From a virus, in the IMG/VR virus record IMGVR_UViG_3300014720_000055, positions 1-44,653 of that record: a stretch of 44,653 nucleotides of DNA, one strand, 5' to 3'. The notes below the pieces were generated by a model. The model made no database searches. It saw nothing but the letters and a program-made list of their open reading frames with translations, and was not told the origin of the DNA. Position 1 is the first letter of the stretch. Each line of letters starts with the position of its first letter. The position numbers and the translations under genes are program-made. Below, piece by piece: positions 2,444 to 43,807 of the stretch.

Positions 2444-2695
2444 TTATACCTCCCCTTCGCTTCCATTATCGCGGATTTGCCATTTCCCGCGGGTAATCAT
2501 GTCGGCGGCGCTCCTGAGCATTCCGTCGGCCAGCCAGGGAGTCATCCCTTCGGAGAACGACATGGCCATGTCCGACGATTCGCCGTCGACGACCTCCGCG
2601 ACCACGATGAAATTGGTTATTATCGCGTTTTTCCCGACTTTCGAGATCATCTCCGCGAACGATCTGCGAACGAAGTCGTCGAATTCGTCGTCCAT
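2444..2695 (-). CDS. Conserved phage protein of unknown function (83 aa)
   Basis: I choose the ATG at 2693-2695, giving 83 aa (begins MDDEFDDFVR), because it follows the previous gene's stop by only 5 nt and the protein has normal composition from there. The open frame continues upstream but only as an antisense-frame shadow of the neighbouring gene, rich in R, G and P. The centre (NFIVVAEVVDGESSDMAMSFSEGMTPWLADGML) resembles a small protein often found near tail or lysis genes of high-GC phages, with a pattern of a beta hairpin followed by a helix. Its role is unknown. It lies 5 nt upstream of the holin-like gene. Confidence 0.7.
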   Translation of the reverse strand: MDDEFDDFVRRSFAEMISKVGKNAIITNFIVVAEVVDGESSDMAMSFSEGMTPWLADGMLRSAADMITRGKWQIRDNGSEGEV

Positions 2696-2700
2696 CGATA

Positions 2701-21389: not shown

Positions 21390-22174
21390 CAGAAGTCGGC
21401 GTTCGTGTTTATGAAGTCGATCAGTTTCGACGCCGTCGTTTCGCCCACGTACGCCGGGTCGTTCCGGACGTACCTGATGAAGTCGTACCATCGTTTCTGC
21501 TGGCCCGCGTCGTCGAACACGAGGGTGTACTGAACTATCGCCCTCTCGCCACCCTTCACGCCAACCGCCACGCTCCCCCTCGTGATCGCCTCCTCCTTGT
21601 CGATCTCGTCCGTGGCCACGTAGTCGATCTCGTCGTTCTCGTTTTTGCTCTCCAGTATCTGGTCGGTTCCGCTCGGCTCGAACGGGTTGACGATGACTGC
21701 GGGCGTGTAGCCGCCCCTGTTGTCGTTCCTCTCGTTGACGAGTATGTCGGTGGTCAGGGACGCGATCTCAAACTCGTCCCAGCCGAGTCCAAGCAGCAGG
21801 TCCTGGTATTCGGACGAGATTTCGGACATCAGCTCGAGCACGACCACCTGATCGGTGTTCCCCAGCTCGGTGGTCCTGTTGTCGGCCAGCGCGAAGGCGT
21901 GCCCGCGACTCTCGTCAACCTCGTAGACGATCGCCGCGATTTTTTGCCAACCGAGTTTCCTCGCGGCGAGCAACTGGTGGTTGCCTGCTATGACCGAGAA
22001 CTTTCCGTCGTCGGACGGCATCACCACGATGGGTTTTATCTGGCCGAACTCGCTGTACGAGGCGACTATCGAATCAACGTTGCCTATTCGTGGGTTCCTC
22101 TCCATCGGCTGGAGTAGGTCTATGTCGATCGCCAGACCGAGGATGGACGGATGGATGTTGGCGGCGTCGCTCAC
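21389..22174 (-). CDS. ParB-like (IbrB-type) protein B (261 aa)
   Basis: This is a second ParB-like protein with clearer motifs: 'LLQPMERNPRIGNVDSIVASYSEFGQIKPIVVMPSDDGKFSVIAGNHQLLAARKLGW' (about residues 20-76) and 'HAFALADNRTTELGN' (about 92-106), matching the NPR, aGnhr..Aa..LG and DNr..el strands of the fold. After residue 150 it has a unique acidic C-terminal extension that ends in 'YDFIRYVRNDP'. It overlaps the small helical gene by 4 nt and the PAPS-reductase-like gene by 1 nt. It is longer than protein A and not closely similar to it, so the two are probably not recent duplicates. Confidence 0.85.
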   Translation of the reverse strand: MSDAANIHPSILGLAIDIDLLQPMERNPRIGNVDSIVASYSEFGQIKPIVVMPSDDGKFSVIAGNHQLLAARKLGWQKIAAIVYEVDESRGHAFALADNRTTELGNTDQVVVLELMSEISSEYQDLLLGLGWDEFEIASLTTDILVNERNDNRGGYTPAVIVNPFEPSGTDQILESKNENDEIDYVATDEIDKEEAITRGSVAVGVKGGERAIVQYTLVFDDAGQQKRWYDFIRYVRNDPAYVGETTASKLIDFINTNADF

Positions 22175-27599: not shown

Positions 27600-29819
27600 A
27601 TGGCCTGGAATTCCAGATCCAACAAGGGTTCTAACGCCGACAGGTTTAAGGCGCTGAACCCGGGCGCCCCGGTCGCCTACAACCCGTCCCAGGTCGGGAA
27701 ACCGTACCGTGACTCGTGGGACATAGAGCGCGCCTACCGTGAGGGATTTCAGAAGGTCACCTGGGTGAACCGCTGCATTGACGCCATCGCGGGCAACCAG
27801 TCTCGTCTGCCGGTGATCCTCAGGGAGGGCAACAGCCCGGCGGGCAGGGTGGTCAACAAGACCGACAGGAAAATTCTCGATTTGTTCAACACGAAGGCGA
27901 ACATGGGCGAGAATTCCTTCGTGTTCAGGTACAGGCTCTCGTCGCAGCTCCTCATGTCTTCCCGCGGCGCGTTCATAGAGAAGATCAGGGGACGAGACGG
28001 AGAGCTGATCGCCCTCCAGCTGCTCCCACCGCAGCACACGGCGCCGATCCCCGACCCCAAGAAGTTCGTCTCGGGTTTCGAGGTGGACATGCGCAACGGA
28101 ACGAAGGTGACCCTCAAGCCCGAGGACGTCGTGTGGATCAGGAAACCCCACCCGTTGGATCCCTACCTCTCGCTCACCCCGATGGAGTCGGCGGGCATCG
28201 CCATCGAGATAGAGAATCTCTCCAAGCTCTACAACCGAAACTTTCTTCTGAACGACGGCAGGCCGGGCGGCCTATTGGTGGTCAGGGGGGAGATTGATGA
28301 CGACGACAAGGACGAGCTCAAGAGCCGCTTCAGGGGGAACGTGAACAGGGCCGGGGCCGTGACCGTCCTGTCCTCGGATGAGGGAGTCGATTTCGTCGAC
28401 ACCGGCCAGAGCCCGAGGGACGCGAACTACGTCCAGATGCGCCAGATACAGAAGGAGGAAATACTCGCCGCCTTCGGTGTCCCCGAGTCCGTGATCGGCA
28501 ACGCGGCGGGCAGGACTTTTGCCAACGCCGCCGAGGAGCACAAGGTGTTCTGGAACGAGACGATGCTCCCCCACCTCGAGACGATCGCAAGGGCCTTGGA
28601 CGAACTGGACGACCAGTACTACATCGACTTCGACGTGACCGACGTGCCGGTCCTCGTTCTCTACAAGCAGGAGAGGGACAGGTACCTGATGACCGAGTAC
28701 CAGACGGGTCTCATCAGCGGCAACGAGTACAGGGAGGGCGCAGGGCGCAAAGTGGTCGACTCCGAGCTGATGAACGCCATGCTCGCCAACCCGAACCTAA
28801 CCCCGATCGGATACACGAACAAGAAGTTCGTGCAGCAGCAGATGGGCGCCCCCGGCATGGGCGGGGCGGTCCCGCCGGCCGGAACGCCGGGCGGACCGAT
28901 GATGCCCGGGATGGGCGCCGTACCGCCGATCCCCGGGATGCCGGCGATCGAGGGGGTGGCTCCCGCCCCGCAGGATGGCATGACCGCGGCGCTCGCCGCC
29001 GAGGACGTGGCCGCGGCCCAGGCCGGCCAGATGGCCCAGGCGTCGGCCTTCGGCAACCAGGTGAGCACGAAATCCCTATGGGACGAGTGGGACGAAAAAG
29101 CCGAGAACTCCCTGGGCAGGTGGACCGAGATACTGGACACGGCGCTCGAGCGTTTCGTGGAGCGCCAGCAGCGGGTGATCATGGAGAAGGCGGCGGGTTC
29201 CAAGTCGCGGAGGGCCCTGGATTCCGGGAGCCTCGACTACGAGAACATATTCGACCAGCGAATCTGGGACAAGCAGCTCGCCGAGGACATGCGTCCGATA
29301 CTGAGCGGAATCATGAACGACGCCGCCACGATCGTCTCGCAGGAGATCGGGATGCAGGCCGAGATCGACGAGAAGGAGGCCTCGGAGCACCTCAAGGAGC
29401 AAGTCGAGAGGTTCCAGCAGGTCAATGCGACGACCGCCAAGGAGATCGAGGGGGCCGTCCTAATATCCCTGTCGCTGGGCGACGAAGAGGACAAAATGGG
29501 AATGCTCAAGGCGGCGCTGCTCGCCATATTCGTCAACCTGCTGTCCAAGCGCAAGAGGACGATCGCCGAGCACGAATCCCACGCAGCGTTCAACGCGGGC
29601 TCCTTCTACGCAGGCCGCTCAATCGGCGCGGCGACCAAAACGTGGGTCTCCGAGAAGGACGCAAAGGTCAGGCCCGAGCACTCGTCCCTGCACGGCAACA
29701 CCGTGAGCATGCACGAACCTTTCGTGGTTAGCGGGCAGGCCATCATGTACCCCGGCGATCCGACGGCTCCGATAAACCTTACGATGAACTGCCGATGCAA
29801 GGTGAGATTCGGGTTCTGA
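27600..29819 (+). CDS. Portal protein fused to a MuF-type head morphogenesis domain (739 aa)
   Basis: The N-terminal about 400 residues are a portal: 'YREGFQKVTWVNRCIDAIAGNQSRLP' and 'PTPMESAGIAIEIENLSKLYNRNFLLNDGRPGGLLVVRG' region plus 'EEILAAFGVPESVIGN', a typical HK97-type portal signature, followed by 'RTFANAAEEHKVFWNETMLPHLETI'. Residues about 417-457 are a G/P/M-rich linker. The C-terminal about 250 residues are helical and end with the MuF fold: 'ESHAAFNAGSFYAG', 'KTWVSEKDAKVRPEHSSLHGN' and 'NCRCKVRFGF'. Portal-MuF fusions are known and usually place MuF inside the capsid. The ribosome-binding site is AAGGAG 12 nt upstream. Confidence 0.9.
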   Translation: MAWNSRSNKGSNADRFKALNPGAPVAYNPSQVGKPYRDSWDIERAYREGFQKVTWVNRCIDAIAGNQSRLPVILREGNSPAGRVVNKTDRKILDLFNTKANMGENSFVFRYRLSSQLLMSSRGAFIEKIRGRDGELIALQLLPPQHTAPIPDPKKFVSGFEVDMRNGTKVTLKPEDVVWIRKPHPLDPYLSLTPMESAGIAIEIENLSKLYNRNFLLNDGRPGGLLVVRGEIDDDDKDELKSRFRGNVNRAGAVTVLSSDEGVDFVDTGQSPRDANYVQMRQIQKEEILAAFGVPESVIGNAAGRTFANAAEEHKVFWNETMLPHLETIARALDELDDQYYIDFDVTDVPVLVLYKQERDRYLMTEYQTGLISGNEYREGAGRKVVDSELMNAMLANPNLTPIGYTNKKFVQQQMGAPGMGGAVPPAGTPGGPMMPGMGAVPPIPGMPAIEGVAPAPQDGMTAALAAEDVAAAQAGQMAQASAFGNQVSTKSLWDEWDEKAENSLGRWTEILDTALERFVERQQRVIMEKAAGSKSRRALDSGSLDYENIFDQRIWDKQLAEDMRPILSGIMNDAATIVSQEIGMQAEIDEKEASEHLKEQVERFQQVNATTAKEIEGAVLISLSLGDEEDKMGMLKAALLAIFVNLLSKRKRTIAEHESHAAFNAGSFYAGRSIGAATKTWVSEKDAKVRPEHSSLHGNTVSMHEPFVVSGQAIMYPGDPTAPINLTMNCRCKVRFGF

Positions 29820-29933: not shown

Positions 29934-30480
29934 ATGGCGAACGAAACTATTTCCTCAGAGGTTGACTACCTCTACAAATCGCTCAACGGCCAGATAAACG
30001 TCGACGAGGCGCAGGGCATAGTCGAGGCATTCGTCGCCGGAGTGGGCAACAAGGACTCCGTGGGCGACATCTGCCTGCCGGGGTGCTTCACCTCGTCGCT
30101 CAAGCGCAGGAAGCCCCGGGTGGTCTGGGGCCACGACTGGAATTCCCCGATCGGCAAGGTGCTCGAGATATACGAAGTCGGACCCAACGATCCCCGTCTC
30201 CCGTCCAAGATGCGCAAGGCCGGCATAGGCGGCCTCTACGCGAGAGTCCAGTTCAACCTTAAGGCCGAGAAGGGGCGCGAGGCCTTCGCCAACGTGTCTT
30301 TCTTCGGCATGGAACAGGAATGGTCCATCGGCTACAAGACGCTGGACGCCGTGTTCGACCCCGTGCAGACTGCGAACCTTCTCAAGGAAGTCGAGCTGTA
30401 CGAGGTGTCGCCGGTGCTGCACGGAGCGAACCAGCTGACGGGAACGATATCCATCAAGGCCGACGAGGCGGAGACCGAGG
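29934..30480 (+). other. HK97-type prohead protease domain of the polyprotein
   Basis: Residues about 1-170 show the S78/U35 pattern: 'GIVEAFVAGVGNKDSVGDICLPGCF', then H67 in 'RVVWGHDWNSPIGKVLEIYE', then S131 in 'QEWSIGYKTLDA', and 'EVELYEVSPVLHGANQLT' at the end. H67 and S131 are the expected catalytic His and Ser. In related phages this enzyme cuts scaffold and capsid proteins inside the prohead. Its fusion to about 4300 further residues is not usual. Confidence 0.85.
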
Positions 30481-33400
30481 TCAAAGACGAGCAGGGTCCG
30501 TGCTGGCCGGGGTACAAGCAGGTGGGCATGAAAAAGGGCAAGGGTGGCAGGATGGTCCCCGACTGCGTGCCCGTCGGCGGCAAGTCTCTAGACGACGAGT
30601 GCTGCCCCGACGAGAAGGCGGCCGACAAGCCCGTGCTGCGAGACCCCAAGGGGGGGTTGACTGCGGCCGGGAGGGCGCACTTCAAGCGGACCGAGGGCGC
30701 GAATCTGAAGCCCGGGGTCAGGGGTGCCGCCGACACGCCGCAGAAGATGCGCAGGAAGGGGTCCTTCCTCACGCGCTTCTTCACCAACCCGAGCGGTCCG
30801 ATGAAGAAACCGAACGGCAAGCCGACGAGACTCGCCCTGTCGGCCGCTGCCTGGGGGGAACCGGTGCCGCAGAACGCGTCCGACGCCGCGGCGCTCGCGG
30901 CGAAGGGTCGCAGGCTGCTAGAGAGATACGAGAATTCGAAGAAGAAGGACGACTCCGAATCGTTGGAGAGCAAGAATCACGTGGACGCCATCTACGCGGC
31001 GGCCCTGACCCCGCAGAACGAAACCTTCGGCAGGGCGTCGCAGCTCACGAGGGCCCTCGCCGCGCGCTTCGGCGGACCCGTCAGGCTGGTAACCGCCGAC
31101 AACGACATAGCGGTGTTCGAGATGGGCGCCGGCCAGTCCACGGAGATGCTGCGGGTCGCCTACCACTTCGACGGCGACGAGTTCATGATCGGAACGGCGC
31201 AGAGGGTGAAACCGGAGACCGTGTACATCCCCGTAAACGAGACCAACTCGGGGCAGACTTCGGGCGGGGTGGCGACCGGCATCGCCCCGGTCCGCCAGCA
31301 CCATGAGGGACATTGTTGTCCTGGGTGCGGCGGGGGAGGGAGCTGTGACGCATCGGTCGCGCTCTCCGACGGGGAGAACCCGAGAATCGCGTTCCTGAAA
31401 CTCAAATCGCTCGGCGACCAACTCGACTTCAGGGTCCGGCCGGTGTCCGGGGGATTCGTGCTGGAGGGCTTCGGTCTGCTGACCGAGCAGGCGCAGCAAT
31501 ACGTCGTGGACAAGATAGACGACGGAATGAGCGAGAAACTCCTCAATCCGGTCGGCAGACTCGCGAGGAGGACGATCGGGTTCCCGAACCCGCGGGCGAC
31601 CCTGAACGTGAACATGAACCCGTTCACCGCGAGGGACGCCGACCTTGACAAGCTCGTGCTCGAGGGGATTCCGATGATAAACATGGGGAGGGGCATCCCC
31701 GACCCGACTCCGTTCGGGGTGCCGGAAGCCCCGGGCTTCGCAAGTCCGAACATCCCGAGCGCATCCGACAGGGTGGTTCCCGGTCGCCGCAGAACGGACA
31801 TGCCGCCCATGATGCCAGCGATCCCCGAGGAGCCGGAGATCCCCGAACCCGTGAAGGAACCCAAGCCCGAGACCGTCCCCCAGGAGCCGCGAGTTCCGAC
31901 AAGACCCAAAACCCCGATACCGGAGAGGGAGCCCTCGCCCTCGCCCTCGCCCTCGCCCGCACCAGCGCCGGCTCGCCCGGTCCCGGAGAGACCGCGCGTG
32001 CCAGTCCCTGTCGGGATGGACGGTAACGATGATTTCGCCATCGCCGCCATGGGGGGCAAGAGGAGAACGCCCAAGGATCTCGCCGACGAGCTGGCCCAGA
32101 TGGACTCGTTCGACCGCCCGAGCAGGCAGACGAGGCAGCGCCGCCTGAGGGACGAGGGCATGGACCAAATGCGCAGGCTGATGCTCCTCGACGGACCGGA
32201 AGCCGGAATGAGCGATTCCAGGGGATCGCGCAAAAATAGGGGTTTGGAATTTATGTTGCGCCCGGATGAGGGGAGGGTCTACTACAGATTCGCGGACGGA
32301 GATTTCAAGGACATAATGGAGCCCGACGAAAACGGGTTCACGCTCATTGACGAAATGAACGAGCTCGGTTACAACGACAGGGGCGATCTCGTAATACGAG
32401 TTGCAGGCCGAGACAGCGTCCTGTTCAGCAAGGAACAGTTTGACTCCAGGGACGGGAATCCGATTTTCACTTTCGAAAACCCCGACAGGGACGAAGTCGT
32501 ATTCGACCGCGAGTTCACGTTTCCCCCTGGTTTCGACGACATCGACGAAATCGACTACGTCGGCTACGACAACATGGGCAATCTCGTCAATCGCGGACCA
32601 GACGGGGACCAAATAATCTTCACGGCGGAGCAACTCGGTTCAACCGGGATGACCGATGACGACATCGTCGACGGCGAAATCGTAGACGACGGTCAGGCGG
32701 GCATGGCCGGCGCTCGCAGGACGAGAGAAGAATCCGCCGAACTCGGAAGAAAGATATGGCTGGCGAGAACGCACGACAAGATTTCGCTGGAGGATGCGGG
32801 CAGTCGTTTCGGCATGTCGCGACAGGACGCGCGCCAGCTCGAGCTGCTCCACCAGAAGTACCTGAGAGGCCTCGGCGCCGAGCATCCGAACCGTGTGGGA
32901 CGAAGCATGCTCGACGATCCGATGACAGGCCTCACCGACGCCGAGATGGATCTCCTCAGGAGGAGATTCGACGGCGAAAAGATCGAGGAGGCTGCGGAGC
33001 GTCTCAGGACTGACAAGTTCGCCGTGAGGCGCATGGAGCAGCTGGCTCTGGCCAAGTTGAGGAACAGGATGCTGGATGACGGCCAGGGAGTCTCTGCCGG
33101 CATGGGCAAGCGCAATGGAGGCAGGGCGGTAGAAGCCGACCCCCCAAAAGCACGACGGGTCGAAAGGCCCGGAAGCCAAAGAAAAAAAAATAGACTCAAC
33201 CCCAGTTTCATACAGATCCTAGATTCCCTGCGGGAATCTGGTCCCGGCGGATTGAGCTCAGGCGAGCAGGTTCGCCTGGCAGCCCTGATGCGACTCCGCG
33301 GCGTCGTCGGCAAGAAGATCGACGACATGATGGCGAGAGGTTCGGGTAGCCGGCGCATGTCGAATCTCGGGCCGGAAATCAATGAGCTCAACGCGTCCAT

Positions 33401-36400
33401 TCGCGGGCCGTTCTCGTCCCTCGCCGAGGCGACGAGACTCTCGGTGGGCACCCCTCGGGATCTGGTTTCTACAGCAATAAAGATGGTCAACGGCGATCAC
33501 GATCCCCGGGACCTAGACAGTTCCATAAACGTTCAGGTGTTCGAGGCCCTGCACCTCTCGGGGGGCGACGTGGCTTCGGTCGCCCGAAGCCTGGGGATGG
33601 ACGAGCAGGTGGTTCGCATCAGGGCCAACGCCCACTCAATGAGGCTCCTCGCGGCTTCCCTCCCGTCAAGGTTGAAGCTGAGCAGACGCATAGAGGAGAA
33701 CGGCGACAAGCTGACGTCGGCCGAGCAAGCGATGCTCAGGATGTGGGTCGACGGCGCATCAAACCTCGACATCGCCGACAAGATGGGGTCGGGCCTAGAC
33801 GAGAAGGGCGTAATTGCCGAGAGGGCTGAGGCCCTGCGAAAGATAGGCGTGGACCTGAACTCCGCCGAGCTGCGCAACAAGATCGTCGACGGAAGGATTT
33901 TCTACGACGAGCACGGTCTCTTCAGCGAAGTGAGAGACGAACTCGGGAACACGACCTACAACAGGATCGGGGACGGCCCCTCGGCGGGGATGGGCGCGGG
34001 CAGGAAGACCGTCGTGAGCGCCGATTTCGGCGACGGAAGGCGGGATTACGCAATCTCCAGGACCGTGGCGAGGGACAGGGCCCGCGGCGAAGAGTCGGTC
34101 CTGCTGGTGCCGATCAGGGGCGACGACGAGCCCACCATCAGCACCCTGATCGGCAGGCAATTGCTGTTCGACGAGAGAGGCGCTGGTCTCGAGTTGCCCG
34201 CAGTCATCAGTCGCTCGGGCGGACGAGTGGCAAGGGTTTCGGACGCCTACGGGCAGGACGTCCCGTTCTTCGGGGAGACGACCATCGACGACAGCATGAA
34301 ACCGTCGGATGGCGCGCTCAGCATCGCCGAGAGGATCGCCGCCGTTAGGAGCAACGACTCCGCGGCCCGAATGAAGATGGACCAGGACGTCGACGGGGCG
34401 CAGACGAGGTACGCGAACCTCGTCACGGCGCTCGATCACCTGATCACCACGGGGGACTGGATCGGCGGCGATCTCGGAGTGACGGGGCGAGTGCCCGAGT
34501 ACGCAACGATGATGACTTACGGCCTCGATGCGGACGAGGACGGACGGCCGATCATCCCCGCCAACGCGACGAGGGAGCAGTTTGAACTCCGGGAGGCGGA
34601 GTGGTTCCTCTCGCGCAACCCCGGCGCAACGAACGAGCAGGTTGAGTCGCACGTGTCCTCGGCGTCAAGGGACAGGATTGCGCAGGTCAACAGGAAGTTG
34701 GACCTCGCCGGCAAGGAGCTGGCGAGGCTCCGCCACATGAGGGACTCCAGGGAGGTCAGAAGGGCGCAGAACGTCGTCGATCTCGAGACGCTCGACGACG
34801 ACGCGGCTCAGATGCTCAGCGACGAGACCGTCTTCCTCTCGTCAATGTCGGGCGTTGAGTTCGATGCGTCGGCGGTGGCGAAGGGCGCCGACGGGTTCGT
34901 TTACGTCGTGCACAAGGGACCGGACAGGCTCGCGGGCGGGGTGCTTGATCCCCGCAGATCCGCCGGCGCCCCTGGCGGCGCCGGCGATGTCGCCGGGCAG
35001 GGCGACACGCGGGGGCTGAACAGGATATATCTGGACAGATTCCTGCAGGTCGCCGAGAGCAATAGGGAGATGGTGGGGCACGCGGAGGGTCTCGCAGCGA
35101 GAATCGCTAGGGGCGACATGGTCGTGACCGCGCACCCGTTGATACTGAGTGCGCTGAGGGGGCGATCGTCTGTGCTCGCCTCGGCGTTCAACGAGTCGGG
35201 GGGGCTGAACCTCGCGAACTACGACAAGGCGCGGGTGGACGCGATCGTGAGGGAAATCGTTGGCTTCGTCGACGACCTCAAAAGAGACATGCAACGCTAC
35301 GGCAAGATAAGAGATTCCCTCGTCAGATTTGGCGGCCCGAACATGGACCAGATGCTGTCGGTCGAGGCGGACGCGATCAGGGCCACCTCGTCCCTCAATT
35401 TCTACGGGAGGTACGCCGAGGCGGATCTCCCCGACGACGTCGTGGAATTTGCCACGGGGTTCACGGACGGATTGACCAGGGGATGGGATCCGATTGACCC
35501 CGAGATGTTCGACAGGTGGAACCTCGGCGGGTCCCTCCGCGGCGGGGCGTTCCTGGCCGTGGGCAGGGAGGACTCCGAAATCGTGAGGGGCGGGTTGCTG
35601 GGACCGACATCCGAGTCGCAGATCATTTCCCCGCTGAAGCCGCTGATCGGAGTATCCACCCCCGTCAGGGTCGACTACAAGACCTCTCCCAACGACCCGA
35701 AGTTCCTCGTGACCCAGATCGGACCGGCGATCATGGCGAGGGCCATAAAGATGCACAAGAGGGACGGCGAGGTGGACATCGAGACGGTGCTGACCGACCC
35801 CAGTCTCGCACCCGAAGGATTCGCCGCGCGGCGCGCGGGCTCGGCGGTCGACGATGCTTCCGCAGGGATGGCCTCCGCTGACCGGATGGTGCGCGAAATC
35901 GTCAACGCAATGGATGAGTACGAGAGGATCGCTTTCAGCGATTACGAAAGGGACGACCAATATCCCAGCCCGCCGACGAACGGGGAGTTCGTCCGTTTCG
36001 CTCGATACTTCGAGGGAGTCGTGGCGACCGAACTCGGTCTGCCCGAAACGAACCCAACCCTTCTCTCTTTCCGTTCCGAATTCCGCGACAGAGTCAAGTC
36101 AGTCGAGGCAAGAGTCGACAGAATCCTCGACAAGCAGGGAAAACGAGAAGTAATTAAGACGACCATCAAGATACTCGGACTGGCGTTGGACCTCAAGATC
36201 CGCGGGGTGGATGCCCTTGATATGGCGGGTGGCAAGGGAGGCTCGAAAGGGACGCTCGAACTGCACTGGATGATTCTGGATGCCGGCGCCTACAAGATTT
36301 TCAATGCGTACGGGCAGAAGGCCCTCGTGGACTTCCTCAACGCAGCAGTGCGAGCGAAACTTCTGCCGCGAAAATCGGCGGACAGAATCATCAACAGGGT

Positions 36401-39400
36401 CCTCGGGGGAGAGTCGGAGAATCGCCCCGGGGCGACGAGCCTCGCCGACGAGACGGCGGCCCTGACGGCGACGTCCATGAGCCCGCGCGCGTCCGACCTC
36501 GTCGCCAGAGCCAGGAAGTATCTCCCCGACGGTGACGGGAACTACGCAGTCCCCGAGTCCGTGTTCCCGAAAAAGGATCAGGACGCAATGTCCGTTGCCG
36601 TTCGAAAGATCCTCGCGGGGGAGGAACTAACCGAAGCCGGCGACCAGTTGGGCGAGCTGCTCAAACGGGCGGAAAACGCGTCGGCGATCCGCCTCTACGG
36701 GAACGAATTGCCCCACGATTCCGACCCGATCGGCACGAGGGTTTACGGTGTCACCTCGGGCCACAAAGAAGTGGGGTACGGACAGCTAATCCCGTTCGTC
36801 AAACCCGGCGCGACCACGTACAGGTACGACGACGGGACGGGTTCGGTCGTCGACTACATCCCCGTGAGGATCGGCAGGAGCCTCGCCGACGCCGACTCCT
36901 TCGCATACCACCCAGCATCAGAGCTCAGGTACGCACGCGTCCTCCGCAACAGGCAGCTGAGGACTTGGAACCACCCGAGCAACTCCGACTCGGGCTCCAA
37001 CGGGACGGTGCTGAACTGGGAAAACTCGGGGGTTGAGTTCGACGCGCTCGGCGAGGAAATCCGTTTCCAGGCCTCGAGAACGAAACAGCTCGACGACAAA
37101 CTCGGCTTCACGGGCGACTCGCCGAGGAAGGTCATATTCGCTCTGCGCCGGGCGTCCGGCGCCAAGACCAATCTGCCAGGCGACGAACTTAGGTACGACC
37201 CGTACGGGTACGTGATCCCCCGTGACGCCACGTCGTCCTCGGGCGACCCCGTCCTGACCTTGCGACGCCGTGACGACTTCGCCGCCCTGCAGGAACTGGT
37301 CGAGACGGCGAGGCGCAAAAAAACGGGCCTGTCCGTGGACGCCCTGGTCGGCTACAAACCGGGCACGAAGACCGGACCGGCGGTCGTAAACAGGGTCGTG
37401 TACTCGCCGAGGATCGCGAACGGCGAGATCGACGAGGTCTCGCGGGCCTTCGTGCCGGGAGGCGAGAACGCCCCCCACCTGCTCGGGTCGGACGAATCCG
37501 GCTCACCCATGGCCTTTGAGATTTCCGACCTGCTCCACGACCAATTCTCTGCGAGGCGGGCGGAGGGAGACCTGCTCGAAAGACAGAGACGAGCCCAACG
37601 GGGTGCGCGGGTGTCGGCGGACGGTGCGGAGGCGGGAATGTCGTCGTCGCTGGACAGGTACGTGCGTTCGGTGCCCGCTCGCGGCGAGGACGGGGAAAGC
37701 GAGTACGAGGACTTGGCGATAGTTGACCTGCCGAGCACATCAAGCGCGAGGTTGGGGGGCGATTTTGACGAGAGTCCTGCCGGGGTCGTGGCAAAGATAG
37801 TCGCCATGGTCCGCCGCAGGGAAGCAGACACGGGCGAGAGAAACGGCCTCGTGTTCTCCTACCCGAGCACGGTGAAGGGGGAACCCGGCGTCAAGAGAGA
37901 CAAGGACAGGACGCTATTCAACCCGATGGTCGTTTACGGGGAGTTCGATCCCGAATCCAAGGAGACAAGGATCCTCGTGACCGACGAGCGAGGGATCACG
38001 AGGCTGGTTCCCATCTCATCGGTTGACCTCGCGGCCCTTGCCGACGACGAGCAGAGAAGGGGCGATCCGTCGAGAAACGAGGACGTGCAGGTCGGCACCT
38101 GGAACGTCTACGTCGTCGGCGACGAGTACGTCGGCGGGAAAAAGACGACCAAAACATTCAACGCGGCGAGAATCAAGCCCGCGATCGCCCACGGGGTGAC
38201 GCGGCCCGCGCCGGACGGCGACTTCGTCGTAGATGACGAACTCGGAGTGGGCTACTTTGAGACGGAACCAGCGACTGACGCTCCTCGCACCGCAACACGG
38301 ACAAAGCCCAGCACCCAGCAACGACCGGATGCGCCGACCTCGGTCGCGCCGAGCGACACGGACGACGACGAAGTCCTGAGACACATGACAGTTCCCGAGG
38401 AGGTTTTTGACGAAAGGACTTTGCTGCCAAGGGACCCCGACTCCCTCTTTGACAAAACGAGGCCGACCGCCTACGAGGTGGCGAAGGGGCTGGCGATGAA
38501 CGACCCCAAGGCAATTGATGCGCGCCAGACGGACGAGAGACGTTACTGGGAAAAGATAGTAGCCAATTTGGGAAAATGGCTGAGAGCGTGGTCGGCGCAA
38601 AACAACGTGGTCACGGAGATGAAAAACGGCGAGGAGGTCACAAAGATAAATCCCGAGACCGGCAAGCCCCTGTACAGAACTCCATACAAGAAAAATTACA
38701 GGTGGTTCGGTAATCCGATCGGTCCCGACGGCTCCGAGATGCCTGATGGCGTTCGCTCGGAGCTCGAGAAGGTCAAGGATTTCGCTGGCTTGAAGAACTG
38801 GATGAACGGGAAGAAAGTGGTGTTCTTTGATTTTGAGACGACCGGCATGGTCGATGGGGAGCTCGGCAGCACGGGCGCACCGCTCCAGGCGTCTTTCCTG
38901 ATCATCGAGAACGGCGACCTCGACAAGCCCAGAGGGCTCACCCTGGCGATCAACCCCGGGGACACCCCAGTCACGCAGTGGAGCATCGACAACGTGAAGA
39001 TCAACGGCACGCCCGTCCTTGAGGCCCTGAAAGATAGTCCGGAATCGTTCCTGTCGCCGGAAGAAGCACGGCAAAAGATCGTCGAATTCCTCGGGCAGGA
39101 CGCCGTGCTCGTCGCGCACAACTTAGTGAACTTCGATGTGAAAGTTTGGAAGGATCTGATGGGGGACCACCCCTACCGGGGATGGATTGACAGTCTTGCC
39201 GTCGCTAACTGGCTTTTCGAAATTGACGCAGCGAGATTCAAGGAAATCATGTCCTTGAGCCGAAGAACCGGTAACCGCGACCGGGACCTATATCCATTCA
39301 CGGATTGGATGTCATCGCAGGTCCGGATCAAGCCGCGAAAACCGGGCGAGAAAGCGTGGAGGGGAAATAAGAAGCCTGGCCCGCTCCAGAAGTTGTACCG

Positions 39401-42400
39401 CAGGGCGACGGGTCCGCTCCATTACAAGGTAGCCGCAAACGAAAAAGGTCAGCTGTACCCGAGGGCGTACGCGTCGAACAAGCTCGAGGCTTTGGCCTAT
39501 TACTTCGGGATTACGCAAAAGGACGCGCACGACGCCAAGGAAGACACCAGAACCCTGGCAAGAATGTTCATGGAGATGCTCGACCTCGGAGAGCGCTGGG
39601 GCGCAGCGAGGCAGATGTTCGACACCGGAACGGTGGCGACTGTGGCGCGACAGATCGACGAACAATACTCGGCCGACGTCGAAAGTTGGGCGAGGGCCAG
39701 CGGCGTGAAAAACCCTCGGCGCGAGACCCTGTTCGACTTCGACGCCAGGCCCGGATCCGGTCGCGGCGACACGCCACCCCGCTCCGGAGGCGCTGGTTCG
39801 GGCGGCGGACGACCCCCCGGAGGAGGGGGAGGCACGCCCCCGCGCGGCGGTTCCTTCTCGGGAGGCGACCCGGACAGGAGACTTCTGTACCAGACGGCGG
39901 ACGGCGTTGCCGTGTACGAGACGAACACGGGCATACATTTCGAAATCAAGTCGATCTCGCCGTCGGACGGCCGCGAGGAAGCCGTGGTGTTCCTAAGGGC
40001 ACTCTCGCAGGCGCGCGTCGAGGGATACGCGGCCGAGTTCAACTACGGCGAGAAACCCGACGGGTCAGTCGCTTCCTACAGGATCGCATCCATCGAGGTC
40101 CTGCGCAAACCCGACCTGACCGACGAGCAAATCAGGGGGGCTGGGCCCGAGGCGTACGAGGTCCACGGCATAGACCTCTCGGACGGCAAGTTGAAGAAAT
40201 TCGAGCTTGCGCAAATCAACTCGGGAGCAAAGGCCGGCCCGAAACCCAGCGACCTCACCGAGCTCCCCGTCAACATATTCGGCGCCGTTTTCTCGGACGG
40301 TTCAGGGGGCAAACCGAAGACTCCGCAACAATACGCGGACTCAATCAGGAGGCAAGCGTTCAGCATGGGCCGATCATCGGACGGGCCCATGGCGGGCATG
40401 TCCGGGCTGACCAACGGGGACGGAGCGACGAACTCGACCTCTTACTGGGTCACGACGCAGGACGACGTCGCCATGGCGGACATGTCCGATTCCGACATCT
40501 CGAAAAGGCTCGCCTCCGACCGAACCAGGTTCGAGAATCTTTTTCACGCGGGCCCCGAGTCCGACGCAGCCGCCTCGAGGGTGCTTGACTCAATGGCAGC
40601 CGCGAACAGAATGATCAAGGTCAGGTCAAACCAGACGACGGACCAGAACGGCTTCTCCGTAGCGATGACGAGGAACGGCTACAAGCTCACGGGCAAGTTC
40701 AAGCCGCCACCGGGCGTGATGGACGGCAGCTACGAACTGCCGGCGGACTTCGGGCCAAGACGGGCCGAGATGGCGAGGAACGCATCGTTGTCCGTGGCGC
40801 TCGACTACGCGACGGCCAACGGCCTCAGGGCCGAGGCCATCGACCGCGTCTCGCGATTCTCTCTCGTTCCCAGAGCCGAACTGCTCGGCAGGCTCGCGTC
40901 CCACGATTACCCGACCTACTCAAGCGCGCTCACGTTCAGAAAATTCAGGGACGCTTCAGAGTCGATATCGGAGGGCATCGCCAGCCCGTCGTCGCTCGGG
41001 ATGATAATTGACCCCGTGTCCGACCTGGCGTCCGCGGCGCGGGCCGTCGACTCGGCTCTGAGAAAGCTCGGCGCAAACCCGCTGGACGAGAGTCGCGTAC
41101 TGCGCAGGGGCGGGCGCAACTACGCACAAATCGACCAGGACGAACTACTGAACGAGTTCAACGAGTCCGTGTCCGACCTCTTCTCCTTCGACCACCGGGC
41201 GATGTTCTCCGATCCCGAATTCAGGGTGAAGTACGACGCGATACGGGACGGGTTGACCGACATAGGCGACGAGCTGAGGAGGAGATACCTGTCGTCGCTC
41301 GCCGACGGCCCGAGCGCTGGCATGTCGGCCGGTCCGTCTCCGTTCGGCGAGGCCGACGGTCTGCCGATTCTGAGCGGCTCAAAATGGTTCGATGCGAGGC
41401 TCTTCGCCGTCCACGGAGCGAGAGACTACGAAAACGTTGCCACCGAATTCGGAAATAGATTCAGGACCCTGCCCGACAGGACATGGGACAACCCGACCGA
41501 CGACGACCTCACGGACATCTACCACTTCGCGACGATGCTCAACCACGACGCCATGATCGAGGACCTCGTCCTCAGGGGCGAAAACACGGACTCCACGGAC
41601 TTCTCCCGGCTTGACGTCGTTGACAACGGCTTGATCGGAGTCGTCTCGAAAATTTCTGCCTTCACGGGCTTACCGCCGGCACGGGTCAACGACCTCGTCG
41701 CGCGGGGCCGCGACACTGCCTTCATCAGGAGACTCGCGGCGATGGACGCCGCCGGGAGGACCGAGCAGATGAACGCGGTTCGCCGAAGGCGCGCCTTCGC
41801 GAGGCTCGCCCGGCTCAAGAAGAAAGAACTCGGGGATTCTTTCCCGCTGTGGCTGGCGGAGGCTTCGATCAGGCAGGGTTCCGACGACAGACGCACCGGA
41901 GGTTTCGAAAACGACTTCGCCGAAATCATGGACTACCCGAGGAAAAATTTCTACGGGGAGGACGTCTCGTCCGCCCTTGACGGAGTAGCGAGCTTCCTCG
42001 GCGTCGCCCCGAGGGGACAGGGCGCCGACCCATCGGCCGGCATGGCGGGTCGCAGGCCGTTCGTCAGGCAGCGTTACGACATCAAGCCCGTAGACGGCGG
42101 ATTCGTGATCATAGACACCGACAACAGGAACTCGATCGCAAGCAGGGTTTTCAAGGACAGGAGGGAGGCCCTGCGCGGGGCGGCCCGCATGGACAAGGGC
42201 GACAGAACGTTCGACCCGTTTGCCGCGCCCTTCACCCCGCCGCCGCCCAAGAACGCACCGGAGTCGATCGTCCGCGACCCGAAAACCGAGAAACTCGCCC
42301 AACCCAAGATCCAACCGACGCTCTTCGACGACAACGGGGACCCGAACGTGGGGATGTCCGCAACGGGAATGCCGTCCAAGCTCCGATTCGCATCGAGGTC

Positions 42401-43436
42401 GCTCAAGGACCAGGGCGTCAGCGAGGAAAACGTACGCTCGGCGATGTCGGAATACGATTCGGGGCGAGCCTCGCTTCCTTACCCGTCGCCAGACGATGTC
42501 CCCGTATCCCGACTGATGGGCGGCTACGCATCGAGCGACGCCGCGCTCAACACCGTCATGGGCAGGATTGAGCAGATAGCGGGCGATCGCTCAAACCGCG
42601 AGGAGATGCAGCGGCTCGCATCCAACCTAGAGAAGCTCCAGAAGAGGAGGAACTATTTCTACAACCAGCTCAGGGAGAGACTGGACGACGGGGATCCCGA
42701 CATGCAGACCTTGGAGTCGTGGCACTCACAGAGGGCGGGTCTAGACAGGGAATCCACGACCCGTTTCGGTCTGGGGAACCTGCCCGCCTACATAATGCCG
42801 AGCAAGTTCGTGAGCGACGCGCCCGCCTCCGACTCAACCCCCGGGTACGTCAACGGATCCAGCGACTTCGCCCTGCTCGAGACGATCGGCAACCTGGCGG
42901 CCGAGAATCTGTCATCGAACTCCCGAACGCCGGGCTACTCGGCGCGCAGGAGGATAGACGAGATCATCAAGTCCGTGCAGCGCGATGTCGAGCGGATTTC
43001 GCGTCGCAGGGGCGAGTCAATGGCCAAGTTCGGCCAGAAGGCCGTCCGTATCGGCGCCCAGGTTCTCGCGATGGCCGCGCGGGCGGGGAAACCCGACGGC
43101 GAGGCGCTGAGGAGGGAGTTGATCTCCGCCGGCCTCTCGCAGATGGTCGCCGACGGTGGCTCCCGTCTGGGGCTGGCATATCTCGTCAACGCCGTTGACG
43201 CGGGGATTCTGACTTCCCTGGAAGCCAAGCGAATGCTGCGGAAGGCGAGGGGCGAGGGCTTGAGGCCGACGTACGAAATGACTAAGGCCGAGGGGTTGCT
43301 GGCTAGGGGCCAAATGTCCCGGCTCGTCTCCGAGCTTTTCGGAACGACGGTGTCGACCAAGTCGGCGGGTCGGAATCCGGAAACCCGACGTCTGTCGATC
43401 ATCACCGAGACGATCAGCTCGGTGTTGACGGAGTGA
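29934..43436 (+). CDS. Giant self-processing polyprotein with N-terminal prohead protease (4500 aa)
   Basis: One unbroken frame of 4501 codons follows the portal. Residues 1-170 are an HK97-type prohead protease. Then come a Cys motif (190-211), a conserved phage domain (237-313), a Cys cluster (461-471), a Pro-rich linker (623-695), a tandem repeat (782-905), HTH-like segments (about 1000-1047, 1196-1242, 1260-1305), SH3/WYL-like stretches, a complete DEDDh exonuclease (about 2950-3225), a Gly-rich linker (3270-3315) and several helical units. The motif D-[GD]-x-[SE]-A-G-M-[SAG] recurs at M759, M924, M1057, M1353, M1979, M2569, M3489, M3797 and M4037, with a variant at M4141. I infer cleavage at these motifs by the N-terminal protease and packaging of the products in the head. 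No frameshift, stop or composition change interrupts the gene, which argues against an assembly error. Confidence 0.85.
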   Translation: MANETISSEVDYLYKSLNGQINVDEAQGIVEAFVAGVGNKDSVGDICLPGCFTSSLKRRKPRVVWGHDWNSPIGKVLEIYEVGPNDPRLPSKMRKAGIGGLYARVQFNLKAEKGREAFANVSFFGMEQEWSIGYKTLDAVFDPVQTANLLKEVELYEVSPVLHGANQLTGTISIKADEAETEVKDEQGPCWPGYKQVGMKKGKGGRMVPDCVPVGGKSLDDECCPDEKAADKPVLRDPKGGLTAAGRAHFKRTEGANLKPGVRGAADTPQKMRRKGSFLTRFFTNPSGPMKKPNGKPTRLALSAAAWGEPVPQNASDAAALAAKGRRLLERYENSKKKDDSESLESKNHVDAIYAAALTPQNETFGRASQLTRALAARFGGPVRLVTADNDIAVFEMGAGQSTEMLRVAYHFDGDEFMIGTAQRVKPETVYIPVNETNSGQTSGGVATGIAPVRQHHEGHCCPGCGGGGSCDASVALSDGENPRIAFLKLKSLGDQLDFRVRPVSGGFVLEGFGLLTEQAQQYVVDKIDDGMSEKLLNPVGRLARRTIGFPNPRATLNVNMNPFTARDADLDKLVLEGIPMINMGRGIPDPTPFGVPEAPGFASPNIPSASDRVVPGRRRTDMPPMMPAIPEEPEIPEPVKEPKPETVPQEPRVPTRPKTPIPEREPSPSPSPSPAPAPARPVPERPRVPVPVGMDGNDDFAIAAMGGKRRTPKDLADELAQMDSFDRPSRQTRQRRLRDEGMDQMRRLMLLDGPEAGMSDSRGSRKNRGLEFMLRPDEGRVYYRFADGDFKDIMEPDENGFTLIDEMNELGYNDRGDLVIRVAGRDSVLFSKEQFDSRDGNPIFTFENPDRDEVVFDREFTFPPGFDDIDEIDYVGYDNMGNLVNRGPDGDQIIFTAEQLGSTGMTDDDIVDGEIVDDGQAGMAGARRTREESAELGRKIWLARTHDKISLEDAGSRFGMSRQDARQLELLHQKYLRGLGAEHPNRVGRSMLDDPMTGLTDAEMDLLRRRFDGEKIEEAAERLRTDKFAVRRMEQLALAKLRNRMLDDGQGVSAGMGKRNGGRAVEADPPKARRVERPGSQRKKNRLNPSFIQILDSLRESGPGGLSSGEQVRLAALMRLRGVVGKKIDDMMARGSGSRRMSNLGPEINELNASIRGPFSSLAEATRLSVGTPRDLVSTAIKMVNGDHDPRDLDSSINVQVFEALHLSGGDVASVARSLGMDEQVVRIRANAHSMRLLAASLPSRLKLSRRIEENGDKLTSAEQAMLRMWVDGASNLDIADKMGSGLDEKGVIAERAEALRKIGVDLNSAELRNKIVDGRIFYDEHGLFSEVRDELGNTTYNRIGDGPSAGMGAGRKTVVSADFGDGRRDYAISRTVARDRARGEESVLLVPIRGDDEPTISTLIGRQLLFDERGAGLELPAVISRSGGRVARVSDAYGQDVPFFGETTIDDSMKPSDGALSIAERIAAVRSNDSAARMKMDQDVDGAQTRYANLVTALDHLITTGDWIGGDLGVTGRVPEYATMMTYGLDADEDGRPIIPANATREQFELREAEWFLSRNPGATNEQVESHVSSASRDRIAQVNRKLDLAGKELARLRHMRDSREVRRAQNVVDLETLDDDAAQMLSDETVFLSSMSGVEFDASAVAKGADGFVYVVHKGPDRLAGGVLDPRRSAGAPGGAGDVAGQGDTRGLNRIYLDRFLQVAESNREMVGHAEGLAARIARGDMVVTAHPLILSALRGRSSVLASAFNESGGLNLANYDKARVDAIVREIVGFVDDLKRDMQRYGKIRDSLVRFGGPNMDQMLSVEADAIRATSSLNFYGRYAEADLPDDVVEFATGFTDGLTRGWDPIDPEMFDRWNLGGSLRGGAFLAVGREDSEIVRGGLLGPTSESQIISPLKPLIGVSTPVRVDYKTSPNDPKFLVTQIGPAIMARAIKMHKRDGEVDIETVLTDPSLAPEGFAARRAGSAVDDASAGMASADRMVREIVNAMDEYERIAFSDYERDDQYPSPPTNGEFVRFARYFEGVVATELGLPETNPTLLSFRSEFRDRVKSVEARVDRILDKQGKREVIKTTIKILGLALDLKIRGVDALDMAGGKGGSKGTLELHWMILDAGAYKIFNAYGQKALVDFLNAAVRAKLLPRKSADRIINRVLGGESENRPGATSLADETAALTATSMSPRASDLVARARKYLPDGDGNYAVPESVFPKKDQDAMSVAVRKILAGEELTEAGDQLGELLKRAENASAIRLYGNELPHDSDPIGTRVYGVTSGHKEVGYGQLIPFVKPGATTYRYDDGTGSVVDYIPVRIGRSLADADSFAYHPASELRYARVLRNRQLRTWNHPSNSDSGSNGTVLNWENSGVEFDALGEEIRFQASRTKQLDDKLGFTGDSPRKVIFALRRASGAKTNLPGDELRYDPYGYVIPRDATSSSGDPVLTLRRRDDFAALQELVETARRKKTGLSVDALVGYKPGTKTGPAVVNRVVYSPRIANGEIDEVSRAFVPGGENAPHLLGSDESGSPMAFEISDLLHDQFSARRAEGDLLERQRRAQRGARVSADGAEAGMSSSLDRYVRSVPARGEDGESEYEDLAIVDLPSTSSARLGGDFDESPAGVVAKIVAMVRRREADTGERNGLVFSYPSTVKGEPGVKRDKDRTLFNPMVVYGEFDPESKETRILVTDERGITRLVPISSVDLAALADDEQRRGDPSRNEDVQVGTWNVYVVGDEYVGGKKTTKTFNAARIKPAIAHGVTRPAPDGDFVVDDELGVGYFETEPATDAPRTATRTKPSTQQRPDAPTSVAPSDTDDDEVLRHMTVPEEVFDERTLLPRDPDSLFDKTRPTAYEVAKGLAMNDPKAIDARQTDERRYWEKIVANLGKWLRAWSAQNNVVTEMKNGEEVTKINPETGKPLYRTPYKKNYRWFGNPIGPDGSEMPDGVRSELEKVKDFAGLKNWMNGKKVVFFDFETTGMVDGELGSTGAPLQASFLIIENGDLDKPRGLTLAINPGDTPVTQWSIDNVKINGTPVLEALKDSPESFLSPEEARQKIVEFLGQDAVLVAHNLVNFDVKVWKDLMGDHPYRGWIDSLAVANWLFEIDAARFKEIMSLSRRTGNRDRDLYPFTDWMSSQVRIKPRKPGEKAWRGNKKPGPLQKLYRRATGPLHYKVAANEKGQLYPRAYASNKLEALAYYFGITQKDAHDAKEDTRTLARMFMEMLDLGERWGAARQMFDTGTVATVARQIDEQYSADVESWARASGVKNPRRETLFDFDARPGSGRGDTPPRSGGAGSGGGRPPGGGGGTPPRGGSFSGGDPDRRLLYQTADGVAVYETNTGIHFEIKSISPSDGREEAVVFLRALSQARVEGYAAEFNYGEKPDGSVASYRIASIEVLRKPDLTDEQIRGAGPEAYEVHGIDLSDGKLKKFELAQINSGAKAGPKPSDLTELPVNIFGAVFSDGSGGKPKTPQQYADSIRRQAFSMGRSSDGPMAGMSGLTNGDGATNSTSYWVTTQDDVAMADMSDSDISKRLASDRTRFENLFHAGPESDAAASRVLDSMAAANRMIKVRSNQTTDQNGFSVAMTRNGYKLTGKFKPPPGVMDGSYELPADFGPRRAEMARNASLSVALDYATANGLRAEAIDRVSRFSLVPRAELLGRLASHDYPTYSSALTFRKFRDASESISEGIASPSSLGMIIDPVSDLASAARAVDSALRKLGANPLDESRVLRRGGRNYAQIDQDELLNEFNESVSDLFSFDHRAMFSDPEFRVKYDAIRDGLTDIGDELRRRYLSSLADGPSAGMSAGPSPFGEADGLPILSGSKWFDARLFAVHGARDYENVATEFGNRFRTLPDRTWDNPTDDDLTDIYHFATMLNHDAMIEDLVLRGENTDSTDFSRLDVVDNGLIGVVSKISAFTGLPPARVNDLVARGRDTAFIRRLAAMDAAGRTEQMNAVRRRRAFARLARLKKKELGDSFPLWLAEASIRQGSDDRRTGGFENDFAEIMDYPRKNFYGEDVSSALDGVASFLGVAPRGQGADPSAGMAGRRPFVRQRYDIKPVDGGFVIIDTDNRNSIASRVFKDRREALRGAARMDKGDRTFDPFAAPFTPPPPKNAPESIVRDPKTEKLAQPKIQPTLFDDNGDPNVGMSATGMPSKLRFASRSLKDQGVSEENVRSAMSEYDSGRASLPYPSPDDVPVSRLMGGYASSDAALNTVMGRIEQIAGDRSNREEMQRLASNLEKLQKRRNYFYNQLRERLDDGDPDMQTLESWHSQRAGLDRESTTRFGLGNLPAYIMPSKFVSDAPASDSTPGYVNGSSDFALLETIGNLAAENLSSNSRTPGYSARRRIDEIIKSVQRDVERISRRRGESMAKFGQKAVRIGAQVLAMAARAGKPDGEALRRELISAGLSQMVADGGSRLGLAYLVNAVDAGILTSLEAKRMLRKARGEGLRPTYEMTKAEGLLARGQMSRLVSELFGTTVSTKSAGRNPETRRLSIITETISSVLTE
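30501..30872 (+). other. Cys motif and conserved phage domain after the protease
   Basis: Residues 190-211 read C-WPGYKQVGMKKGKGGRMVPD-C, a pattern I recall from virion polyproteins of other environmental phages. Residues 237-313 (DPKGGLTAAGRAHFKR to WGEPVPQ) are a domain I associate with DUF6321-type sequences, with K/R-rich 'MRRKGSFLTRFFTNPSGPM' in the middle. Both look conserved rather than low-complexity. The DUF number is from memory; function is unknown, possibly DNA binding inside the head. Confidence 0.5.
31800..32018 (+). repeat. Proline-rich linker with CCCTCG tandem repeat
   Basis: Residues 623-695 of the polyprotein are Pro/Glu/Arg-rich and include a PSPSPSPS stretch encoded by four exact CCCTCG units (31932-31955). 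The stretch ends at a variant boundary motif P-V-G-M (M695). It looks like a flexible linker between the protease-proximal part and the processed units. Confidence 0.7.
32277..32651 (+). repeat. Tandem protein repeat of about 60 residues in the polyprotein
   Basis: Copy A (residues about 782-840) and copy B (about 843-905) share the order: beta strand, acidic 'GF..IDE...' segment, 'GY(N/D)..G(D/N)LV.R...(D/G)....(L/I)F(S/T).EQ(F/L)(D/G)S'. The 'NDRGDLVIRVAGRDSVLFSKEQFDS' and 'DNMGNLVNRGPDGDQIIFTAEQLGS' ends align without gaps. The unit is closed by an STGM/QAGM pair. Function unknown. Confidence 0.65.
32931..33074 (+). other. Sigma-region-4-like helix-turn-helix segment
   Basis: Residues 1000-1047 read LTDAEMDLLRRRFDG.KIEEAAERL..DKFAVRRMEQLALAKLRNRM, which lines up with the sigma70 region 4 / LuxR pattern 'Lt..E...l...f.g.s..eiA..l..s...V...e..Al.kLr'. 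The preceding 'ISLEDAGSRFGMSRQDARQLELLH' is HTH-like too. Two more such segments lie at about 33519-33659 and 33711-33848. This suggests DNA binding; a working sigma factor is not implied. Confidence 0.45.
37329..40209 (+). other. Dispersed WYL/SH3-like segments in the polyprotein
   Basis: Three stretches, at residues about 2466-2535, 2636-2704 and 3360-3425, share a loose pattern: aromatic 'F.Y' or 'GY', then a loop with G, then 'R....P.(V/I)', then a second strand pair ending in a charged 'f....(L/I)..(L/I)' helix, e.g. 'YAAEFNYGEKPDG', 'SYRIASIEVLRKP' and 'YEVHGIDLSDGKLKKFELAQI'. This resembles WYL or other SH3-like ligand/nucleic-acid binding domains. The listed span covers all three and other sequence between them; the call is tentative. 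Confidence 0.25.
38781..39608 (+). other. DEDDh (DnaQ-type) 3'-5' exonuclease domain in the polyprotein
   Basis: Residues about 2950-3225. Exo I is 'VVFFDFETTGM' (D2966, E2968), Exo II is 'VLVAHNLVNFDVKVW' (H3062, D3068), and Exo III is 'DAHDAKEDTRTLARMFMEML' (H3199, D3204). All four acids and the His of the DEDDh family are present, with normal spacing, so it is expected to be an active single-strand or proofreading-type exonuclease. It is flanked by a Gly-rich linker (3270-3315) and lies in the unit between M2569 and M3489. Confidence 0.85.
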
Positions 43437-43486: not shown

Positions 43487-43807
43487 ATGAGATACCAGGG
43501 ATCGTACGAGGCTAAATCAATGACCTCAGAATACATAATCAGCCTTGGCGAGCTTTCCATGCTGGAGGAAGACGAGCCCGACGACGATTTTTTCATGCCC
43601 GTGCCGCCCGAGGACCTTTTTTATGCCAAGTCGGCGGTAGACGAGGTTCTTTCATCTTACGAAATGAAGGCCAGCGCGGTGCCCGACGGGATAGTGCTCC
43701 ACGAAGCAAAATTAATCGGACCGACCCTCGTTGAGGAGCTGCAAGAAGCGATTACCCGGGTCTGGCATGATGCTCAGGCGAGAAACGCCAACAGCGGCAA
43801 TCAGTAA
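43487..43807 (+). CDS. Unknown acidic protein (106 aa)
   Basis: The start is ATG 43487, directly after a perfect GGAGG site (43478-43482); an upstream in-frame ATG near 43433 has no such site and overlaps the polyprotein stop. The protein starts MRYQGSYEAKSM, then has an acidic segment 'SMLEEDEPDDDFFMPVPPEDLFYAKSAVDEVLSSYEMKA' and a final helix 'PTLVEELQEAITRVWHDAQARNA'. No family recognised. Its place between the protease polyprotein and a putative capsid-region gene would suit a scaffold or decoration accessory. Confidence 0.7.
   Translation: MRYQGSYEAKSMTSEYIISLGELSMLEEDEPDDDFFMPVPPEDLFYAKSAVDEVLSSYEMKASAVPDGIVLHEAKLIGPTLVEELQEAITRVWHDAQARNANSGNQ

Follow-up and report, generated by a model that had tools for sequence, protein, structure and literature searches.

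A candidate capsid-maturation polyprotein in tailed phages: a prohead protease heads a chain of modules bounded by Met-ending motifs

We propose, with a probability of roughly 0.84, that the phage described here makes a capsid-maturation polyprotein. Specifically, a prohead protease would cut several cargo chains after Met residues, both in cis and in trans, inside proheads. The window, by which we mean the whole stretch of DNA analysed, comprises 44,653 bases and is a virus record from IMG/VR. Within it, positions 29934-43436 of the forward strand are open throughout and form a single frame of 4500 aa (the giant ORF), with the portal gene directly upstream. The terminase large subunit and tail sheath are also encoded in the window. 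Hence, the phage is contractile-tailed. Features are listed in Table 1. Note that the gene following the giant ORF is short compared to its homologues, and may reflect either a real truncation or an assembly error. A phosphoadenosine phosphosulfate reductase-like gene (20262-21491, reverse strand; PHROG 2302, E 5e-71) sits among the structural genes.

Table 1. Features of the giant ORF and its surroundings. Positions are those of the window unless a genome is named; res, residues of the giant ORF.
Feature	Position	Strand	Basis
Portal protein, 739 aa, with C-terminal head-morphogenesis (MuF-like) part	27600..29819	+	PHROG portal E 1e-98; phrog_2468 E 3e-28
Putative protease-cargo polyprotein ORF, 4500 aa	29934..43436	+	Homologues in many independent contigs
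S78/assemblin-type prohead protease, res 14-184	29973..30485	+	PHROG 80 head maturation protease E 2e-26; Pfam S78
DUF6321 domain, res 236-307	30639..30854	+	Pfam E 1.6e-27
Recurring tag NMNPFTARDADLDKLVLEGIPMINMGRGIPDPTP, res 560-593	31611..31712	+	One copy per giant head-module precursor, several precursors, in related genomes
Loose site M695, after Pro-rich linker	32016..32018	+	Comparable sites in G008, L100, L106, L108, L117, L130
M759, first full motif (DGPEAGM, then S), closes module 0	32208..32210	+	Motif position; module boundary comparison
Module 1, res 760-924, Asp/Glu-rich, ends DDGQAGM	32211..32705	+	Sequence
Module 2, res 925-1057, 133 aa, sigma-70 region 4-like HTH (weak)	32706..33104	+	Pfam Sigma70_r4 E 1e-3; end-to-end matches
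Module 3, res 1058-1353, LuxR/GerE-like HTH (weak), ends DGPSAGM	33105..33992	+	Pfam GerE E 8e-4
Module 4, res 1354-1979, 626 aa	33993..35870	+	Relatives in other precursors of other phages
Module 5a, res 1980-2182, ends with degenerate TATSM	35871..36479	+	Akin to part of a G013 module near module 8
Module 5b, res 2183-2569	36480..37640	+	Separate AGM-bounded module in G002, L006, G003
Module 6, res 2570-3489, 920 aa, with DnaQ-like exonuclease (38820-39146)	37641..40400	+	PHROG 192 E 1e-17; Pfam RNase_T E 1e-4
Module 7, res 3490-3797	40401..41324	+	Conserved across dialects A, S and P
Module 8, res 3798-4037	41325..42044	+	Module comparison with relatives
Module 9, res 4038-4141, ends NVGM (AGM in G002)	42045..42356	+	Module comparison with relatives
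Module 10, res 4142-4500, C-terminal product	42357..43433	+	Module comparison with relatives
Next small head-module gene	43488..43807	+	About 106 aa versus 547-601 aa in homologues of G003/G013/G002
Second short element	G003 ORFs at 55757, 104428; G013 ORFs at 26798, 78157

The giant ORF opens with a prohead protease

A first-pass annotation of this DNA had described one frame of about 4500 residues opening with a prohead protease. Our results bear this out. The N-terminus is of the S78/assemblin type, and matches Pfam PF04586 (S78) above the cut-off (E 3e-10). The two catalytic residues named at the time, H67 and S131, are invariant in 27 protease sequences, as is H163. In assemblins, the catalytic triad is His-Ser-His and is spaced in a comparable way. 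The best PDB matches to an AF2 model of the protease (pLDDT 74) are herpesvirus proteases, albeit modest ones (E 4e-3, TM about 0.4). The modelled fold appears to resemble that of herpesvirus assemblins. As is characteristic of the family, the protease gene sits in a head module, with a portal gene directly upstream and, in relatives, a gene for an HK97-type major capsid protein (MCP) downstream.

At protease residues 124-131 (30303-30326), the residue pair before a conserved EQEWS varies, being GM, GL, GE or DM. For example, the related contig L096 has FFDM where the window has FFGM. This variable pair could bear on protease specificity.

Repeated Met-ending sites coincide with module boundaries

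AGM ends exactly at M759, M924, M1057, M1353, M1979, M2569, M3489, M3797 and M4037, the nine positions initially noted. The full form of the site is D-[GD]-x-[SE]-A-G-M, then S, A or G. Plain AGM thus occurs nine times in the giant ORF, versus 1.1 expected and a maximum of eight in 2000 shuffles. With a small next residue stipulated, there are nine sites versus 0.3 expected. Note that our evidence comes from sequence throughout, that expected counts derive from composition and shuffles, and that, in individual phages, pattern matching was used to locate some of the sites. An unbiased search for three-residue patterns placed D...A.M second in the giant ORF, behind a Pro-rich linker pattern. The same search ranked AGM, or the variant E.GM, first in three relatives. 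The boundary motifs had been called regular. This is true of their form, but not of their spacing, which ranges from 104 to 920 aa, or from 133 to 920 aa when only full sites are counted; since the distance between sites varies so widely, regularity is a property of the motif only.

The sites fall where one domain gives way to the next, in sequence slightly less prone to order, and the segments between them are distinct, as first suggested. Segments of 133, 296, 626 and 920 aa match end to end across several phages, and modules change precursor. Module 3 is 296 aa in four phages and module 6 is 920 aa in three relatives. The helix-turn-helix (HTH) assignments in modules 2 and 3, sigma-region-4-like and LuxR-like respectively, are weak. 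Relatives of module 4 occur in other precursors of L106, L122 (twice), L161 and G003, and in the first three of these the local form of the site comes next. For module 4 itself, the AF2 model was poor (pLDDT 54) and a profile search found no solved relative. A possible identity as an ADP-ribosyltransferase, judged by eye, was not supported. The C-terminal third of the giant ORF has no sequence match in named phages. Module 1 (165 aa) is strikingly rich in Asp and Glu, and a DNA-mimic role is conceivable.

Comparison between phages also altered the list of sites. The segment from 1980 to 2569 consists of two joined modules, meeting at a degenerate site, M2182 (ALTATSM, then S). This boundary, absent from the first-pass annotation, reads EAGM in G003 and G002. 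The looser sites proposed earlier fared differently. M4141 is backed by AGM at the equivalent position of G002. M906 is weakly favoured by DSGAM in L096, an equivalence judged solely from the sequence upstream. M695 is no more than suggested by sites in other dialects (see below), and is absent in the close relatives G003, G013 and G002. M4146 is Leu in relatives, which speaks against it. While about ten released proteins were envisaged previously, the predicted count for the giant ORF is now about 11-12.

Site motifs follow the genome rather than the module

Scanning IMG/VR with the N-terminus of the giant ORF identified at least 42 loci in close relatives. A wider scan yielded at least about 600 candidate contigs. 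Among relatives, the first ORF, encoding the protease, can be as short as about 660 aa or as long as 5467 aa. Other relatives have a different site motif that is just as uniform across the sites of a genome, which we regard as the decisive result, and we refer to such motifs as dialects. The dialect is GP[VI]GxM in G008, G009 and L100; D[GE]P[TIV]xSM in G007; DSGAM in L096; VVGxM in L108; ISGxM in L117, L126, L128 and others; LSGxM in L130; LTGAM in L106; and GM, then RSxR, in G012 and L149. In G008, there are 24 copies of P.G.M, versus 1.4 expected, and none elsewhere in the same contig stretch. Both the AGM and P.G.M dialects were also found by unbiased pattern search. Across dialects, the Met is nearly invariant and, in most, a small residue comes after it. 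The motif is restricted to 4-8 residues and the flanks are unrelated. One contig filed under a Phycisphaerae MAG (L163) encodes a relative of the protease ORF, 2690 aa long, that has no recognisable Met motif.

Alignment of related giant proteins showed that homologous boundaries mostly keep the Met, flanks follow homology and the motif follows the genome. AGM itself is conserved in relatives with the AGM dialect and replaced by other uniform motifs elsewhere. Motif identity is 0.55 within a genome, a value with some circularity, since the motif itself was used to pick the sites, versus 0.22 at homologous sites across dialects; flank similarity runs the opposite way. Projecting the boundaries of the window into G007, G008 and L096 by flank alignment alone is motif-independent, and so avoids that circularity. 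The local motif was present at most projected boundaries. Some homologous boundaries have no matching motif, and one G008 site is Leu (CTG). An exact Met was found at 0.13 of projected sites, compared to 0.04 of random positions and 0.24 of other Mets in the window, a weak statistic, given that projected positions are displaced by indels in the linkers. Our argument is carried by motif content at boundaries, not by this rate.

Phylogeny provides a further view. In the tree, L096 (DSGAM) branches inside the AGM clade, with support of 98/86. Hence, about 13 sites have changed together, during which the protease domain has remained 88% identical. Such concerted change, of all sites in one genome, suggests a single recognising enzyme.

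We considered whether the motif might instead be an uncut interdomain linker, or a binding element for a scaffold or packaging factor. Sites placed between domains, where the sequence is slightly less prone to order, would fit, and coevolution with any single binding partner would also give concerted change. However, a prohead protease is fused to the same chain, and the layout of a small residue, x and P1, then another small residue, resembles known prohead sites. Furthermore, the Met persists when other motif residues change, and homologous modules end at the motif in different precursors. We consider this explanation improbable.

Slightly less probable again is that translation also starts internally at the site Mets, or that these are left over from gene fusion, with each module made as a separate protein as well and the motif corresponding to a ribosome-binding site, ATG and a small residue. 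Met followed by S, A or G resembles a processed N-terminus, codons for E-A-G can resemble GGAGG, and P1 is encoded by ATG at all scored sites but one. However, the exception is CTG, and there is no Shine-Dalgarno excess at sites relative to other Mets (2.00 versus 2.12 in the window). Elsewhere, the values differ slightly in either direction, with G002 and G012 a little on the higher side. Synonymous codon use at the sites is mostly at background. In addition, the R dialect is conserved downstream of the Met, and upstream residues vary by dialect without Shine-Dalgarno logic. Least credible is that gene conversion, or module shuffling via a shared seam, homogenised the motif at the DNA level without protein recognition: modules do move between precursors, and synonymous codons at G003 sites are more alike than background (0.54 versus 0.36), so some recent DNA copying may contribute in that genome, but in the window, G013, G002 and G008 the sites share codons at close to the background rate, and likeness ends abruptly at the edges of the motif.

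Recognition of the sites by the protease, as the first-pass annotation envisaged for AGM, is well supported, if indirectly, and is the reading that we favour.

Other giant head-module proteins carry the same sites and a shared tag

In G003, G013 and G002, about 60-66 kb separate the start of the protease ORF from the MCP gene downstream, and giant ORFs, encoding up to 5330 aa, fill this interval. In these three genomes and G008, giant ORFs between portal and MCP share one motif per genome. For head-module ORFs of G003, G013 and G002, AGM occurs 31, 32 and 36 times respectively, versus 4.3, 4.9 and 5.5 expected. Outside the head module, AGM is not in excess in G003 or G013 (2 versus 3.3 expected, and 1 versus 1.1). 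Similarly, the genomes with the smallest head modules (G014, G015, G018 and G019), which have the protease and no extra cargo, have no excess of the Met motif. Each of these patterns favours recognition of the motif by the protease. Since the window ends soon after its first giant ORF, we infer the further giants of this phage from relatives.

The system had been described as self-contained. This proved too narrow: the other giant precursors of the long relatives bear the same sites and, therefore, the protease probably also acts in trans. Domains that can be named are scarce overall; those of G013 comprise many HTH domains, a zeta-toxin-like kinase and NUDIX. A Pfam search of five other head-module ORFs, from G003, gave no match.

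Several of the giant precursors also share a short element of the form A[RN]xADxDxxVxEGxPxINxGRGxxDPTP. Per genome, the ORFs bearing it are the protease ORF and those encoding 1763-2457 aa, 913-917 aa, 1827-1855 aa and over 5200 aa. Each of these has one copy, near the start of the chain and, if the chain has full cut sites, ahead of the first of them; the exception is an extra AGM at G002 residue 552. By analogy with phage T4, which uses capsid-targeting propeptides (PMC9026906), the element is a candidate capsid-targeting or scaffold tag. A second short element, KALGATIGG...DRDGDG[YT]I[FY]DGTP[DQ]EQ, occurs in two smaller head genes flanking the giant ORFs.

Proposed mechanism

In the proposed capsid-maturation pathway, the protease would probably be active once confined in the prohead with tagged precursors, each probably brought there by the tag preceding its first cut site. 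Cleavage would fall C-terminal to the short Met-ending motif, with a small residue next, though the scissile bond could be one or two residues away from the Met. In cis, cuts would separate about 11 modules of the protease's own chain and free its N-terminal module. In trans, the protease would cut several further giant proteins from the head module of this phage. By this route, few tagged chains would package many cargo proteins. These would include HTH or sigma-like proteins and a DnaQ-like exonuclease, to which relatives would add a zeta-toxin-like kinase and NUDIX. The same protease would mature the capsid. In line with this, nine MCPs have an invariant NGANM just after the delta-like region, which is a possible capsid cut site of the small-x-Met type. 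The separated cargo would be packaged with the DNA and probably ejected with it. Judging from gene position, tag motif and domains, packaging and injection of this cargo as effectors is plausible.

A broader version of the proposal is that widespread uncultivated tailed phages make true polyproteins. Here, few tagged precursors would load dozens of cargo proteins per head, one Met-directed protease would serve them all, its motif would have switched several times genome-wide, and a multi-effector package would be ejected. We lean only slightly towards accepting this in full. If true, it would bring the polyprotein strategy of RNA viruses to tailed phages, and account for some of the giant phage genes seen in metagenomes. 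It would also supply a rule by which the mature proteins encoded in such genes can be delimited. Related phages that differ in cut motif, with proteases that are 71-89% identical, amount to a natural experiment in specificity and in tens of sites changing together. Together, a shared tag and a cut motif would make up a simple code that directs proteins into phage heads.

Comparison with known systems

Polyvalent proteins, known from phages and conjugative elements, are huge, combine 2-15 disparate domains, are encoded among virion genes and are thought to be delivered with DNA (Iyer et al. 2017, PMC5512222). The same authors propose processing by embedded peptidases, likening this to RNA-virus polyproteins. 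The giant ORF is similar in size, in multi-domain make-up (protease, DUF6321, HTH and DnaQ-like domains in one ORF adjoining the portal gene) and in the proposed release by a peptidase. However, zincin metallopeptidases are held mainly responsible for the processing of polyvalent proteins, in which assemblin-like peptidases are reported to be C-terminal in every case (PMC5512222). Here, the protease is N-terminal (residues 14-184 of 4500), and several precursors share one motif with genome-specific dialects.

The proteases T4 gp21, phiKZ gp175 and SPN3US gp245 are assemblin-type serine enzymes with defined P3 and P1, which cleave head and ejected proteins, mostly removing propeptides from single proteins (PMC9026906, PMC10052503). 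They cut after Glu, at L/I-x-E, S/A-x-E and A-x-E (PMC9026906, PMC10052503), and for gp245 the site is A-x-E, then S (PMC10052503). The motif of the giant ORF has the same order of small residue, x, P1 and small residue. Conversely, the apparent P1 is Met in all dialects, whereas the known prohead proteases of large phages cut after Glu, which counts against our reading. The sites here also part many modules of one chain. RNA-virus polyproteins, such as those of picornaviruses and nidoviruses, offer another parallel, since one protease frees many products and the site consensus drifts with lineage. The proteases and viruses are unrelated, and here we consider dsDNA tailed phages and head cargo.

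In the open-licence literature searched, we did not find this arrangement described for tailed phages. Because the single parts are known already, novelty rests on their combination: as far as we searched, it is new to find multiple cargo precursors together with a site that is apparently Met-directed and with dialects that span the genome.

The nearest named homologues of the protease, at 36-42% identity, belong to Gordonia phages DalanDe, GMA6 and Gray, Brevibacterium phage Cantare and Streptomyces phage Gilgamesh. Head proteins of cultured relatives (DalanDe, Gray, ScarletRaider and Gilgamesh) yielded no strong repeated Met motif. In DalanDe gp27 (1633 aa), the protease domain is in the C-terminal part, unlike in the giant ORF. 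Gilgamesh gp48 (L093 764-14638), a hypothetical protein of 4624 aa encoded between portal and protease, is a candidate for a cultured giant head-module protein.
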